From the NCBI GenBank assembly GCA_003278225.1, contig QCGC01000001.1, forward strand, positions 62,001-126,000: DNA of 64,000 nt. Direction: 5' to 3'. Below, piece after piece: positions 44,242 through 50,043 of this stretch. The DNA is from Prochlorococcus sp. AG-363-P01 (lineage in GTDB: Bacteria > Cyanobacteriota > Cyanobacteriia > PCC-6307 > Cyanobiaceae). Position numbers and translations under genes: made by a program. A model generated the notes under the pieces. It saw nothing but the letters and a program-made list of their open reading frames with translations, searched no databases and had not been told where the DNA came from. How positions within the stretch are numbered: the stretch's first letter is position 1; every line of letters starts with the position of its first letter.

Positions 44242-45270
44242 GTGAGTGAGCCAGAACCCGATGCCAAGTCAAGGCGGATATCACTTGAGCTGCCGAATGA
44301 ACATATAAATCATATAGACCAGCTCATGAGAGAATGGGGATTAAGAGCTAGGGGAGATGTACTTAAAAGACTTTTAGATGAGGTTTTGCCAGAAAGTGAT
44401 ATAGATCTTACAAATATAATAACTGATAAAGAAATCAATAAAAAAGATAGTTTTATAACCAAAAGTAGTAAGTATAATGAAAATAAGGCTCTCGTACTCA
44501 TTACGAAATCTGATACAAAAAGCTCGCAAAAAGATTCAGAATATCCATCTGAATCATCTAAAATACCAAAATTAAATTTAGCAAATAATTCTATAGACCT
44601 TCCAACATTTGTAAGTAAAAGGACTAAAGTATTAAAAACTAGCCTTAGAGATATTCAGAGGAATACACATCTAAATGACAACCTGCTAAATACTGTTTCA
44701 TCCTTGCATCTCCAACATGCATTAGAAGCATCTACTAAACATTGGCTTTCATTGTATGGGAATAAGCCTAAGGAGAATGTTGTTGAAGCAGGAATGATAT
44801 GGTTAGCTAGAGACATATGGCCTAATTTAGATAACACAGATGGGATTACATTTACATGGACAGCAGCAAATAGACTAGTAAAAGAGTATTGTAAAGATTG
44901 GAAAGAGGCAGAGCCTACTCTAGAAAGTATAATTGTTGTCTCTGGCTTACTAGAAGATCCATTCTCATCTAAACAGTTAAAGGATAGAGTCCCAACATTA
45001 ATCCGTAGATTTGTTAATAGGTTTAAGCGAAGTCATAATGTGACTTCATTTCAAACACTTGAATCAACAATGACTTTACATGGTGCACTTAAGTTGTTAG
45101 ATATATCAACTAGAGCGGGCACGCCACTTACATTAAACAATATAAGGGATTCTTACAAAACTAAAGCTATGAAGGTTCACCCTGATTCTGGTGGTTCTTC
45201 AGAATCTATGAGAAAGGTTAATGAAGCCTATCAATTACTCAAAGAACTTTACAGAGATTCAACCCAGTAA
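44242..45270 (+). CDS. J-domain protein with ribbon-helix-helix-like N-terminus
   Basis: A 342-residue protein with an unusual layout. Residues about 10-50 (SRRISLELPNEHINHIDQLM, then RARGDVLKRLLDEVLP) look like a ribbon-helix-helix DNA-binding or dimerisation segment. Residues 55-125 are polar and low in complexity. A central helical region follows (150-280), with WLSLYGNKPKENVVEAGM. The C-terminal 45 residues are a J-domain end with the HPD triad (MKVHPDSGGSSESMRKVNEAYQLLKELY). The start is GTG 44242, with GAGGT 5-9 nt upstream. An Hsp70 partner is implied by the HPD; which one is unknown. I do not know a named function. Confidence 0.7.
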   Translation: MSEPEPDAKSRRISLELPNEHINHIDQLMREWGLRARGDVLKRLLDEVLPESDIDLTNIITDKEINKKDSFITKSSKYNENKALVLITKSDTKSSQKDSEYPSESSKIPKLNLANNSIDLPTFVSKRTKVLKTSLRDIQRNTHLNDNLLNTVSSLHLQHALEASTKHWLSLYGNKPKENVVEAGMIWLARDIWPNLDNTDGITFTWTAANRLVKEYCKDWKEAEPTLESIIVVSGLLEDPFSSKQLKDRVPTLIRRFVNRFKRSHNVTSFQTLESTMTLHGALKLLDISTRAGTPLTLNNIRDSYKTKAMKVHPDSGGSSESMRKVNEAYQLLKELYRDSTQ

Positions 45271-45292
45271 TAACCAAATCAAACAAGACTAA

Positions 45293-45319
45293 GTCTAAGA
45301 CTAGATACGAGTCTTAGAC
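45293..45319. repeat. Perfect 10-bp inverted repeat after the J-domain gene
   Basis: GTCTAAGACT (45293-45302) and AGTCTTAGAC (45310-45319) are separated by AGATACG. It begins 23 nt after the stop codon of the upstream gene. The position suits transcript-end formation, but there is no T-run after it, so an intrinsic terminator is doubtful. Confidence 0.6.
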
Positions 45320-45472
45320 GAGACATATGAAACTCTTTTGATTGAAGTTATTTATAATTAATATCCACAATAATAACTTTGTCAGAAGTGAACCAATAGC
45401 CTTTTGGAACCGTGGCTGCAATTTCTTTTATTTAGAATAGCTGGTTAAAAAAATCTACTCTTCTCTTGTAAG

Positions 45473-45497
45473 ACTCGGAATAAGTCTCGGAATAAGT
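45473..45497 (+). repeat. 12-bp tandem duplication
   Basis: The unit CTCGGAATAAGT occurs twice in direct succession (ending in the first bases of the following repeat copy). It lies immediately upstream of, and partly merges into, the first of the three diverged direct-repeat copies. Confidence 0.6.
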
Positions 45498-45522
45498 CAA
45501 GAAGGAGACTAGTGCGAACGGG
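45491..45522 (+). repeat. Diverged direct repeat, copy A
   Basis: AATAAGTCAAGAAGGAGACT followed by AGTGCGAACG. The shared core with copies B and C is a GACTA-A/G-TG-CGA pattern after a purine-rich tract. It is the most diverged copy and is preceded by an AAAAATCTACT segment that also has a counterpart upstream of copy C. Confidence 0.45.
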
Positions 45523-45700
45523 TAATTGAACCTGCAAAAGTTTCGTTTTAATCTGATCGCTAACTATTATGAGAGGTTGCCTTCATTCTAAAATGCAATT
45601 AATGGGCATTTATCAATATGAGAATGGCAAATAGTGCACTTTCCTAGTGTCCCGTCTATGTCCAGAGTTTTTTATCTGATAATAAAACCTTTGGTAGTCT

Positions 45701-45755
45701 TACATTCTACTACTGCGTAACTGTCGCATAGACAGTTACGCAGTAGTAGAATGTA
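45701..45755. repeat. Perfect 25-bp inverted repeat (hairpin)
   Basis: The left arm 45701-45725 begins TACATTCTACTACTGCG and ends CTGTC; the right arm 45731-45755 is its exact reverse complement, separated by the loop GCATA. It is not followed by a T-run. A transcript through it in either direction would form one long uninterrupted helix. Confidence 0.9.
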
Positions 45756-45830
45756 TTTGTACAGGAATTAGCCAATAAATAACAGCAGCGCTGGTCGATA
45801 GAAGTAATCTAACTGATCTAAATTGAGTCT

Positions 45831-45870
45831 TGTAGTTGGACTTAATAATAGACTAAAATGCGACCTACGA
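45831..45870 (+). repeat. Diverged direct repeat, copy B
   Basis: Begins TGTAGTTGGACTTAATAATA and continues GACTAAAATGCGACCTACGA. It aligns without gaps to copy C at 46031-46070: TTGGACTTA, GACTA, AATG and GAC are shared at the same spacing. The identity is partial but over the full 40 nt. Confidence 0.55.
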
Positions 45871-46030
45871 TAAATAAATTTATTGAACGTACAAATAACA
45901 AATATCAGTTTTTATCCTTAAAAACAAGCTAAAGAGGATCTTTTAACTCATTTAAAAATTAAGAATTTTCATTGCTCCATATTTATCGCAGAAAAATCTA
46001 TTGCCAGTCTTACAAGTATTCACATGGTCT

Positions 46031-46070
46031 ATAAATTGGACTTAGAAAGGGACTAGAATGAGACAACTGG
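46031..46070 (+). repeat. Diverged direct repeat, copy C
   Basis: Begins ATAAATTGGACTTAGAAAGG and continues GACTAGAATGAGACAACTGG, matching copy B over its whole length. It ends 90 nt before the rlmD-like start codon, so it may lie in the leader of that gene. Confidence 0.55.
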
Positions 46071-46160
46071 TTATGTATAGATTCTCGCTAAATTGCTCTA
46101 TATATAGCAATATTTCTTCCCCTAATAGCCTATTTCCCGTAAGACAATTTCAATTCAACA

Positions 46161-47537
46161 ATGAAAAATGAAAATGGAGCTCATAAGCAGTTCCCCATAG
46201 GCGAGATAGTTCAGGTTACTTGTAAGGATATAGACAAAGCCGGCTATGGCATATCAACTTGGAATAAAAGAGTACTGGTTACTCCTGAACTTGTACCTGG
46301 GGATACTGCTTATCTGCAGATCAAATATAGGTCTGGTTCAAGATGGTTTACTAATATTGTAAATTTTAGTTCATTATCACTACACCGCAGAATTCCTCCT
46401 TGTGACAAATATCGTGATTGCGGGTGCTGTAGTATTCAGCATATTACTGATGAGCAACAATATCAGATTAAAATTAATCAACTAGAATATTTAATAGGAA
46501 CTACATTGAAGATAGATTGTAAGCTAACTAAACAAAAGCAGAATAATGGTAGAAATATCAATTATAGAAATAGAGCAATAATGCCATTTAGTTTTGATAA
46601 TAATCAAATACTAATGGGTTACTACAAAAGAAATACTCATACTATTATAGATATTAATTATTGCCTTGTACTTGATGAAAGAATCAATAGATCTCTAATA
46701 GTTCTAAGAAGTAAATTAGAGAGCCTACTAAAAAATGGCGAGTTAAATATTAATGCTATGAAACAAATCAGCCACATCTGTATACGAACAGGAGCAAATT
46801 CAGACCAATCCCTGCTCACTTTTGTAACAAGAAAATATTCTAGTCAATTCACTAATATAGCCCTAAAAATCTTCGATCAAAATATAGCCGGTATCACCCT
46901 TAATATTCAACCTGAAAGTAACAATGTCATTTTTGGTAAGAACACTAAAACACTAATAGGCAAACCCTATATTGAAGAAGTATTCTGCGGTCTAAAATTT
47001 AGAATAGCAAGTACAACATTTTTTCAGATTAATTCTCCTCAGGCTGAAACTGTAGTAAATTATATAATACTATTTCTTAAGAAATACGGCAATGTTAATA
47101 GCATAATAGATTCATACTGCGGAATTGGTACTATCTCATTACCATTAGCAAATTCAGGTTATTACGTAATAGGTATTGAAATTAATCAGGATTCAATAAA
47201 ACAAGCAAAAGATAATGCATACATAAATAATATTGATAATGTTCAATTCATTAATGGAGATGTGAGTAACATATTAGAGGAATATTTAACTGGAAGCGTA
47301 GGGCTAATACTTGATCCTCCTCGGAAAGGTTTAGATATTCATTTATTACAAGTAATAATAAAATATAAACCTAAGTTAATTGCATACCTTAGTTGTAATC
47401 CATCAACAATGATAAGAGACCTTAAATACTTGTTAGAACATGCTAATTATACTATCAACCAAATTTACCCAATAGATTTCTTTCCCCAAACAACACATAT
47501 GGAATGTTTGGCAATAATTAGTCTAGCTAACTCCTGA
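46161..47537 (+). CDS. rlmD: 23S rRNA (uracil-C5)-methyltransferase, RlmD/TrmA family
   Basis: SAM-dependent RNA m5U methyltransferase of 458 residues. An N-terminal TRAM-like RNA-binding domain (about 10-70) precedes the Fe-S cysteines in PPCDKYRDCGCCSIQHI (Cys 81, 87 and 89/90). The catalytic domain has FFQINSPQAE, DSYCGIGTISLP, LDPPRKGLD and the active cysteine in YLSCNPSTMIRDL. Whether it is RlmD- or RlmCD-type cannot be settled by reading. It follows the 890-nt gene-free region and overlaps the end of the convergent pheT gene by 11 nt. Confidence 0.87.
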   Translation: MKNENGAHKQFPIGEIVQVTCKDIDKAGYGISTWNKRVLVTPELVPGDTAYLQIKYRSGSRWFTNIVNFSSLSLHRRIPPCDKYRDCGCCSIQHITDEQQYQIKINQLEYLIGTTLKIDCKLTKQKQNNGRNINYRNRAIMPFSFDNNQILMGYYKRNTHTIIDINYCLVLDERINRSLIVLRSKLESLLKNGELNINAMKQISHICIRTGANSDQSLLTFVTRKYSSQFTNIALKIFDQNIAGITLNIQPESNNVIFGKNTKTLIGKPYIEEVFCGLKFRIASTTFFQINSPQAETVVNYIILFLKKYGNVNSIIDSYCGIGTISLPLANSGYYVIGIEINQDSIKQAKDNAYINNIDNVQFINGDVSNILEEYLTGSVGLILDPPRKGLDIHLLQVIIKYKPKLIAYLSCNPSTMIRDLKYLLEHANYTINQIYPIDFFPQTTHMECLAIISLANS

Positions 47538-50043
47538 GTTCTGCAGATATCAATTTCACCAAAGCTTCTCTAACTTTCTCATGTATTGGATTCACATCTT
47601 CATCTGTTAATAATTTCTTCCTTGATCGATACCATAATCTATAAGCTAAACTGCAATGATCTGATTTTAGTTGTCCACCCTCAAAGCGATCAATCAGTTC
47701 GGCCTTCTCCAAAAGTGGTTTACCAGCTTTCATAATTACTTGTAGTGCCTTAGAAGATAAACAATCTTTACTAACAACGAAGGCTATATCGCGCTCTATA
47801 AATGGAGTTGTCATATAATCCTTAAAGATAACATTCCATTTATTCTTTCGTGTAGCTGAAATTAACAGGCTTTCAAATTCAACATCAAACAGGTACGTTT
47901 CGTTTGGAAGCCCATGGACCTCAGCTAAAGCCGGATGTATTTGGCCAAATTTACCAATAGCTTTCCCTTCTACAACTATTGAACAGGCTCTCCCAGGGTG
48001 AAGATTAAACTCCACATTATCCTTATATGGTAAATCTGTTGAATCAATTTTAAGTTGCCTAAAACAATTGGCAAGAATTCCTCTAGCTTGATAATAACTT
48101 GGTGGACTATATTTACCATTGCTAGACCATTTTTCCATTCTTTTTTCTCCACAAATTACACCTGATAACATAGGTGTTTCTTTTATTTGCTTTTGATGTT
48201 TGGTGAAGATATTACCAATTTCAAAAACCCAACATCCCTTTTGGCCTGAATTTAAATTTCTTTTGCAGGCTTTCAGGTGTTCAGGTAATAATGAAGTTCT
48301 TAGATGGCTTGTTTCCTTAAGAAGTGGGTTTTTTATTCCTACCCTCACAGCATCATTTAAGTCCTCACCCACAAGAGATAGTGTTGTAATCTCTTGAATA
48401 CCTTCATTACATAAAATCTCTCTTAGTCTTCTTTCAGCAAGCTGTCGTGCATTTAATATACCAGGCCTTAATGGACTGGGTAAATTATCTTCAAATTGGT
48501 CATAACCAATTAATCTTGAGATTTCTTCTATCAAATCAATTTCTCTGTGTAAATCCTTGTTTCTGTATCTAGGGATAATAATATTCCATCCTACATCTAT
48601 TTTTTCAATTTCACATCCTATCGATATTAGAGATTGCTCAATTTCATGATCAGATATTTCTCGTGTATTGTTTATTGATAAATTCTCGTTAACCCTTTCT
48701 ATTTGACTACTAGATATTTTTTCTTTATCCACAGTGTCAAATTTTAATTTACCTAAGACTTGTTTTACCCTAGACTTCCTTAGCATTACTAATCTATTTG
48801 CTATATTCCTATTTCCAGAATACCAACTACCTATTAATTTAGTAGGAAAATTTTCATTATAGATTTTGATTGCCTTTTCAACAGGTATAAAGTTCCCTTG
48901 TGTTGCTATGCCCTTTTCATAACGGATACTCGATTCAGTTCTAATACCTAATTTTCTTGCAGAATTTCTTACTGAAACCTGTGAGAAGATTGCTGATTCC
49001 AACCATATTCTCCTAGTATTTTCATCTACACAAGACTCTATACCGCCCATTATTCCAGCCAATGCGATTGCAATGTCGTTACATGTAACGACATTGCAAT
49101 TATGATCTAAAGTATATATTTTCCCATCAATTGTATTAATTTCCTCTCCATTCCTTGCTTGTCTCAAGTTAAAACTTTCTTGATTAACTTTGGTTTTAGT
49201 AATAGCTTCTAATTTATCAGCATCAAAAGCATGTAATGGTTGTCCCTGTTCCAACATAATGTAATTTGTTATATCAATTATTAAATTCTTAGATGTTATT
49301 CCTGAATTTTCTAATCTATTCTTTATTGTATTAGGTGATGACTTATTACCATCAACACCTTCTATTAAGGTGATAGAATATATACCTTCATTTTCCAAAA
49401 TAGTTGAATTAAATTTGCTGTTCTCTATAGGTTTTGGATCAATCAAAACTTTATGGCTAGGTATTCGTATTTCAGAATTTGTAATTGCTGAGACTTCTCT
49501 TGCAATTCCATGCAAAGACATACCATCTGGCCGATTAGCTGTAATAGCTAAATCAATTATCTTGTCATCCAATCCTAAAAGTTCTGATACCTCATCACCC
49601 AATTTAAGTTGCTTATTTGATATATCATCTAGTATCAAAATACCTTCGTCTAATCCGTTGATTCCTAGTTCAGATTTGGAACAAATCATACCTTCACTTG
49701 ATACGCCTCTCAATTCACTTTTTTTAATAGTTAAATTGTTTGAAGGAAGGTGCGTTCCAACAGTGGCTACTGGCACATGTATTCCACTCCTTACATTTGA
49801 AGCACCACATACAATCTGAAGCAATTCATTTTTTCCTATATCAACCTCGCAAACAGTCAATCTGTCTGCATTTGGGTGAGGTTTCGTATGATTTACAAAA
49901 CCGATGACAACTCCTAAGGCCAATTTGGAAAGATCATCTATTGCTTCCACTTCAAAACCAGACATTGATAGTTTTTCTGCCAGTTCTTCTACAGAAACTG
50001 ATATTGTCACCATTTCCTTAAGCCAGGACAAAGAAACCCTCAT
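47527..50043 (-). CDS. pheT: Phenylalanyl-tRNA synthetase beta subunit
   Basis: Beta subunit of the (alpha-beta)2 synthetase, 838 residues. It begins MRVSLSWLKEMV; a tRNA-binding (EMAP-like) domain follows with HPNADRLTVCEVDIG, then the B3/4 editing domain (DITNYIMLEQGQPLHAFDAD), the B5 domain (YRNKDLHREIDLIEEISRLIGY), the catalytic-like core (LSLVGEDLNDAVRV) and an anticodon-binding end (PFIERDIAFVV). The 838 length is a little above the usual 800. An unusual perfect 34-nt palindrome (49067-49100) lies within codons 315-326. Confidence 0.96.
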   Translation of the reverse strand: MRVSLSWLKEMVTISVSVEELAEKLSMSGFEVEAIDDLSKLALGVVIGFVNHTKPHPNADRLTVCEVDIGKNELLQIVCGASNVRSGIHVPVATVGTHLPSNNLTIKKSELRGVSSEGMICSKSELGINGLDEGILILDDISNKQLKLGDEVSELLGLDDKIIDLAITANRPDGMSLHGIAREVSAITNSEIRIPSHKVLIDPKPIENSKFNSTILENEGIYSITLIEGVDGNKSSPNTIKNRLENSGITSKNLIIDITNYIMLEQGQPLHAFDADKLEAITKTKVNQESFNLRQARNGEEINTIDGKIYTLDHNCNVVTCNDIAIALAGIMGGIESCVDENTRRIWLESAIFSQVSVRNSARKLGIRTESSIRYEKGIATQGNFIPVEKAIKIYNENFPTKLIGSWYSGNRNIANRLVMLRKSRVKQVLGKLKFDTVDKEKISSSQIERVNENLSINNTREISDHEIEQSLISIGCEIEKIDVGWNIIIPRYRNKDLHREIDLIEEISRLIGYDQFEDNLPSPLRPGILNARQLAERRLREILCNEGIQEITTLSLVGEDLNDAVRVGIKNPLLKETSHLRTSLLPEHLKACKRNLNSGQKGCWVFEIGNIFTKHQKQIKETPMLSGVICGEKRMEKWSSNGKYSPPSYYQARGILANCFRQLKIDSTDLPYKDNVEFNLHPGRACSIVVEGKAIGKFGQIHPALAEVHGLPNETYLFDVEFESLLISATRKNKWNVIFKDYMTTPFIERDIAFVVSKDCLSSKALQVIMKAGKPLLEKAELIDRFEGGQLKSDHCSLAYRLWYRSRKKLLTDEDVNPIHEKVREALVKLISAELRS
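49067..49100. repeat. Perfect 34-nt palindrome inside pheT
   Basis: ATTGCAATGTCGTTACA is followed directly by its exact reverse complement TGTAACGACATTGCAAT, with no spacer. On the coding (minus) strand it encodes residues 315-326 (NCNVVTCNDIAI) in the B3/4-domain region just before LAGIMGG. The gene frame is intact and the segment is in line with family length, so it is not an insertion. Confidence 0.95.

Follow-up and report, generated by a model that had tools for sequence, protein, structure and literature searches.

The closest described systems are those in which tyrosine recombinases act at a dedicated site, among them XerCD/dif, whose classic site layout is 11-6-11, and the single-recombinase systems XerH/difH, XerS/difSL and XerA. 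In the cer/psi and TnpI systems, accessory sequences restrict recombination to sites on one molecule, and CTXphi-type mobile elements exploit Xer. For cyanobacteria, the available excerpts of three papers report that a systematic search recovered dif in none of five (Kono 2011, PMC3025954), that no cyanobacterial dif was predicted in a later genome paper (PMC6416890) and that some cyanobacteria are without Xer and have a separate 'Cyan' group instead (PMC8138268).

Here we describe a conserved site of picocyanobacteria in a window of 64,000 nucleotides (the whole stretch of DNA analysed) from a Prochlorococcus-like assembly of 1.27 Mb that is about 65% complete. We propose that the core of a perfect hairpin in this window is the terminus site-specific recombination site, that is, the functional dif, of picocyanobacteria; we infer recombination from the features described below, and give this reading a probability of roughly 0.78. 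Like XerCD/dif, the system has a single terminus site, about 27 bp long, whose inverted arms flank an asymmetric centre; all genomes tested have a core tyrosine recombinase, and phages hold copies of the site. The system differs in its 9-9-9 layout, in its additional GTCC and AGACT boxes, in a recombinase that scores far under the XerC, XerD and XerS cut-offs and in that no FtsK match was found; compared by eye with the E. coli dif sequence, the core shows no resemblance. With XerH/difH, XerS/difSL and XerA it shares near-symmetric arms and, apparently, the use of one recombinase, with XerA (4a8e) as the nearest solved relative, although it belongs to other sequence families, has accessory boxes and yielded no FtsK match. 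The arrangement of a core site beside phased protein boxes recalls cer/psi and TnpI/IRS and could, by analogy, give one-molecule selectivity, but the picocyanobacterial site is chromosomal and lies at the terminus, and its boxes and likely proteins are unrelated. As with CTXphi-type elements, the host site is found in viral genomes. Neither of two integrases tried had a homologue in these fragmentary contigs. Here, however, the carriers are tailed T7-like cyanophages and others, the GTCC boxes are copied too, and no terminus integration of cyanophages was seen in the loci read. The site sequence was not found in the available portions of the literature on Prochlorococcus or cyanobacterial dif, Xer, dimer resolution, the terminus or cyanophage attachment. 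Within those portions, an approximate place in MED4 is already in print and the site itself appears to be new.

A perfect hairpin encloses a conserved 9-9-9 core

The hairpin, at 45701-45755 of the window, consists of 25 uninterrupted Watson-Crick pairs closed by the loop GCATA (45726-45730) and sits between two forward-strand ORFs, in a gap of 890 bp (45271-46160). With 64,000 positions, 13 loop sizes and 4^-25, a rough calculation by hand puts the chance expectation for such a hairpin at about 1e-9. The runner-up among perfect inverted repeats in the window, at 49067-49100 inside the phenylalanyl-tRNA synthetase beta gene, is a loopless palindrome of 17 pairs. A sequence-only reading had described the element as a perfect 25-bp hairpin in a gene-free region, far beyond chance and unlike an intrinsic terminator, and each of these points held: no T-tract follows the stem, which rules out an intrinsic terminator. 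Rfam models run over the window matched only two tRNAs and left the hairpin without a match, so that a known RNA family was also rejected. We searched the source genome for further copies of either arm, allowing up to three mismatches, and found none in this roughly 65% complete assembly; a dispersed repeat was ruled out on this ground. The same reading had raised membership of a known repeat family, and what we find is a member of a site family conserved across species rather than a dispersed repeat.

The inner 27 bp of the hairpin (45715-45741, forward strand) read GCGTAACTG-N9-CAGTTACGC, with a left arm at 45715-45723, a centre at 45724-45732 and a right arm at 45733-45741. This core is enclosed by a species-specific outer stem, whose left side (45701-45714) pairs with its right side (45742-45755). 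In a DNA search of 99 genomes, two genus-mates shared the inner 11 bp on each side, and their outer stems were wholly different. The inner-core pattern, with up to three mismatches, matched 55 of 400 family genomes, in one place each, whereas the reversed pattern matched once, in G004. One copy per chromosome, as expected of dif, is thus the state of the matching genomes, with one additional off-locus core in each of three (G100, G339 and G350). A strict composite pattern was found in 11 of 36 genomes within the family and in none of 255 cyanobacteria outside it, though many of the latter possess the recombinase. Pattern matches also fell in other bacteria (L038-L041); one of these, a contig of a Clostridia metagenome-assembled genome (L039:4194-4679), has three exact GTAACTGTC-N5-GACAGTTAC palindromes in 500 bp and looks unrelated.

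The DNA sampled for comparison comprised the stretch behind the neighbouring gene in 39 genomes, one off-locus copy from G100 and the surroundings of 20 further pattern matches. Our set of 85 loci excludes the window copy (L010) and four off-locus matches (L066, L088, L090 and L092), and 39 of its members were chosen through the neighbouring gene, independently of the motif. The core was present in all 85 of these other picocyanobacterial loci, downstream of the same gene for an RHH-like/J-domain protein. We placed 82 of the cores by score and three high-light cores by eye; because the score rewards conserved positions, the column invariance in the 85-site table is partly built in.

All 85 loci share the 9-9-9 layout of arm, centre and arm, and in all of them the centre is bordered by CTG and CAG, a constancy to which the score contributes. 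The arms take the forms GCGTAACTG, GAGTACCTG, GCATAACTG and GCGTATCTG across loci. Arm positions 2, 3 and 6 vary and mostly change together on both sides, and all nine arm pairs form in only 58 of the 85. The centre is asymmetric and frequently has TATAGA at its end; this asymmetry of the 9-bp centre in the aligned sites, which is no symmetric palindrome, rules out a hairpin telomere or protelomerase site. In high-light Prochlorococcus (L078:600-626, L079 and L080), the right arm and centre are kept while the left arm is degraded and pairing is lost, which may point to asymmetric use of the site. The exact high-light form recurs in eight of nine complete high-light genomes, and the ninth has an altered last base.

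The outer stem ranges from 0 to 16 bp across loci and reaches at least 5 bp in 13 of 85. Its sequence varies by genome yet can pair perfectly, over 14 bp in the window and 16 bp in both G001 and L008. The sequence-only reading had favoured a recent origin or correction between the arms. The feature is old and family-wide, not recent; of its parts, the outer stem alone looks recent, in its length and its sequence. Correction from arm to arm gains some support from outer stems that are genome-specific and perfectly paired; our guess is that, in the window, the long and perfectly paired outer stem arose by lineage-specific arm-by-arm correction, through template switching at the hairpin.

Such pairing could also belong to a structured RNA element (a processed leader, a small RNA or a terminator-like hairpin) transcribed from the gap, and an RNase III-type substrate had indeed been suggested. 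The joint changes at arm positions 2, 3 and 6 would fit such an RNA, as would the outer stems, which remain paired over as much as 16 bp, but the incomplete arm pairing in the remainder of the 85 loci, the high-light genomes that retain one arm and have lost pairing, and the lack of an Rfam match and of a T-tract do not. The 9-9-9 core, the terminus position, the GTCC boxes phased by a helical turn (45 or 55 bp) and the phage copies that retain these DNA boxes, all described below, likewise favour a site where a protein complex binds DNA over the RNase III reading, and we consider an RNA element very unlikely.

The locus lies at the replication terminus

With dnaN taken as the origin, the distance from dnaN to the locus, computed by hand, is 0.46-0.50 of the chromosome in 21 of 23 complete genomes. 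The two exceptions are G115 (0.33) and G060 (0.36), for which skew is of no help, being mixed in the former and flat in the latter. In G003, the combined skew switches sign between the 20-kb pieces flanking the site and reverts at dnaN, and G+C dips at the site. In G286, the cumulative G-C skew reaches its maximum about 20 kb past the site, and the T-A skew switches sign in the 20-kb piece that contains it. On the contig of the window, the cumulative skew is maximal at the end of a piece, 14 kb short of the site, around which G+C has its minimum. Because the locus is at mid-chromosome distance from dnaN and coincides with or lies near a skew flip, we take it to mark the replication terminus.

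The high-light core form lies at 829,201-829,221 in G192, whose length of 1,657,990 bases we take to be that of MED4. This position is the middle of the published MED4 ter window with the vesicle-DNA peak (PMC10913375). In the available text of that paper, which takes its dif sites from the literature, the window is given as 826,000-832,000 of NC_005072.1, and Prochlorococcus vesicle DNA is enriched across a 100-kb region with its top peak 'directly at the dif site'; the MED4 dif sequence was not found in that text.

Phased boxes accompany the core

A pair of GTCC boxes, starting at 45649 and 45660 and separated by the 11-bp spacing, occupies 45649-45663 on the forward strand, 55 bp before the core. 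An upstream pair of GTCC or GGAC boxes 8-16 bp apart was found in 69 of the 85 host loci, with a spacing of exactly 11 in 58, and a clear pair is missing in 16. When applied downstream of the core, the same rule found a pair in just 19 of 85. The distance from pair to core clusters at 55-57 bp and at 45 bp, values that differ by one helical turn. TGTCCA/TGGACA reaches a density of 27 per kb between -100 and -50 bp, and none of the other bins within 900 bp exceeds 2.5 per kb.

Arrays of a second motif, AGACT/AGTCT, lie on both sides of the core. In the window, two upstream arrays of AGACT/AGTCT (45286-45324 and 45471-45499) and a downstream array of AGTCT/GGACT/AGACT (45826-45854) are joined by a second downstream array (46027-46064), read by eye, that is degenerate (GGTCT/GGACT/GGACT/GAGAC); the pentamers are spaced at 12 bp. 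Within 350 bp of 82 sites, we counted 514 occurrences of AGACT/AGTCT against 102 expected, and their spacing peaks at 12 bp with 113 pairs. The arrays are weak or absent in 15 of 85 loci by the rule applied. We read the locus as a DNA site bound by protein because of its fixed spacing, its helical-turn phasing, a centre that gives orientation, its occurrence once per chromosome at the terminus and its copies in phages. Taken together, these features are all accounted for by a dif-like site.

A core tyrosine recombinase and an RHH/J-domain neighbour

Matches to the tyrosine recombinase family PF00589 were found in all 24 genomes tested, 23 of which exceed the cut-off. In most of the 24, the matches include an ORF of about 390 aa, which is the sole match at threshold in six. 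We read this ORF in 15 of 16 loci and aligned 14 sequences, leaving aside L204 (the recombinase of G060) and L205. The R, K, R, H and Y residues are conserved in the alignment, and Tyr replaces the first His of HxxR, the usual tyrosine-recombinase motif. The protein scores far too low for the XerS, XerA and XerD models (12.7-13.5 bits against a cut-off of 329.6 for XerD in the proteins tried) and likewise for XerC; a pair of recombinases passing the XerC and XerD models was not found. Its profile had one PDB match, XerA 4a8e (E=0.0039). Relatives occur in 83 of 116 genomes of the class, and G046 has a second, weaker one. No genome of the 24 had an FtsK (PF01580) match above the cut-off, with one weak fragment in G211. 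By elimination, this recombinase is the candidate that we pair with the site.

The gene upstream of the gap (44242-45270, forward strand) encodes a protein with an RHH-like N-terminus and a C-terminal J-domain, a candidate DNA-binding partner. Its DnaJ Pfam match (27.6 bits) is slightly below the cut-off of 27.8, and for its N-terminus a profile search gave a weak NikR match (E=0.014), alongside a sub-threshold match to the BrnA antitoxin. Relatives of the gene were found in 351 of 400 family genomes. It is full-length in the family only (10 of 10); among 106 other genomes, four match just in the J-domain region. The AlphaFold model of the protein has a mean pLDDT of 46 and was set aside. On the other side of the gap, the downstream neighbour (46161-47537, forward strand) encodes RlmD/RumA, a 23S rRNA uracil methyltransferase (TIGR00479, 338.7 bits, above the cut-off), an adjacency that is not kept in all relatives.

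An RHH-like neighbour, AGACT arrays clustered at the locus and a position at the terminus would also suit a site, akin to those of MatP/matS or Tus/Ter, that organises the terminus or stops forks and that is bound by the RHH/J-domain protein and does not recombine. However, matS and Ter sites occur in many copies per genome, whereas the core occupies one place per genome, with an extra copy in three. The phage copies, in which core and GTCC boxes come without AGACT enrichment, are also better suited to recombination, and we regard such a site as unlikely.

We return to a dif-like site, which very probably is the long-missing place at which a core recombinase takes joined chromosomes apart. In the mechanism that we propose, one core tyrosine recombinase would bind both inverted arms at a pair of sister sites, and strand exchange across the 9-bp centre would convert chromosome dimers to monomers before division. 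The GTCC pair and the AGACT arrays, the latter possibly a target of the neighbouring RHH/J-domain protein, would build a complex in which only sister sites on one molecule can recombine. Because FtsK was not found, we propose that these flanking boxes replace FtsK control. With a concrete sequence for the site, experiments can address dimer resolution, its control without FtsK and the peak of terminus DNA in Prochlorococcus vesicles.

Cyanophages carry copies of the site

The pattern GCRTAACTG-N9-CAGTTAYGC matched 77 marine viral contigs of IMG/VR, against five for a control pattern with reversed arms. A GTCC or GGAC pair accompanies the core in 73 of the 77, with a spacing of mostly 11 (46 contigs) or 21 (20 contigs) and a commonest distance to the core of 43, 47 or 57 bp. 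AGACT was not enriched around the viral copies (126 observed against 117 expected). The GCGTACCTG form was found in 50 viral contigs, only 31 of which have a GTCC pair, and the high-light type of composite was found in none. One viral match, L042, was set aside as a coincidence that sits within a 1374-aa ORF.

A T7-like cyanophage terminase was matched in 42 of the 77 contigs and a T7-like RNA polymerase in 25; in contigs with both, the core is located between them. Further contigs come from different phages, as judged by DNA polymerase and terminase. None of the 77 contigs matched the host recombinase or the genes that neighbour the host site, and none matched the integrases of P-SSP7 and L212, the two queries tried against these fragmentary sequences. 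Among named phages, the parts read of P-SCSP1h, P-SCSP2, S-B28 and P-SSP7 had no GTCC pair with a core, a similarity search found no carrier of the site, and the L212 recombinase had no phage match. According to the available text of PMC8776855, T7-like cyanophages show integrase-dependent integration at tRNA-Leu, and the lysogeny of abundant cyanophages is an open question.

The off-locus copies in G100, G339 and G350 lie away from the terminus, and each has a GTCC/GGAC pair about 11 bp apart. In the complete genome G100 (L212:8809-19400), the second core adjoins glyQ and is followed by at least five GGAC boxes, a T7-like RNA polymerase and a tyrosine recombinase; this region is perhaps an integrated phage or satellite. 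In the loci read, we saw no integrated element at the terminus and no prophage bounded by two sites, and no recombination event was observed directly.

These extra copies, the phage-type genes beside the one in G100 and the 77 viral contigs would be expected if the host site were a phage-related attachment site or scar with no cellular role. All 85 loci have the core at the terminus, however, and the recombinase is distributed far more widely than the family, which make this reading highly improbable. Under the dif reading, the viral copies would instead be imitations of a host site. More tentatively, and at a little under even odds, we suggest that a single cyanobacterial recombinase in an accessory complex resolves dimers independently of FtsK and that widespread, integrase-less cyanophages mimic the site and its boxes to enter the terminus by means of the recombinase of the host. 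The phage copies suggest that abundant cyanophages integrate transiently by a route so far unrecognised. Separately, one contig (L213:1534-17123) resembles an inverted self-duplication with mirror-image ORFs and is probably an artefact of assembly or amplification.
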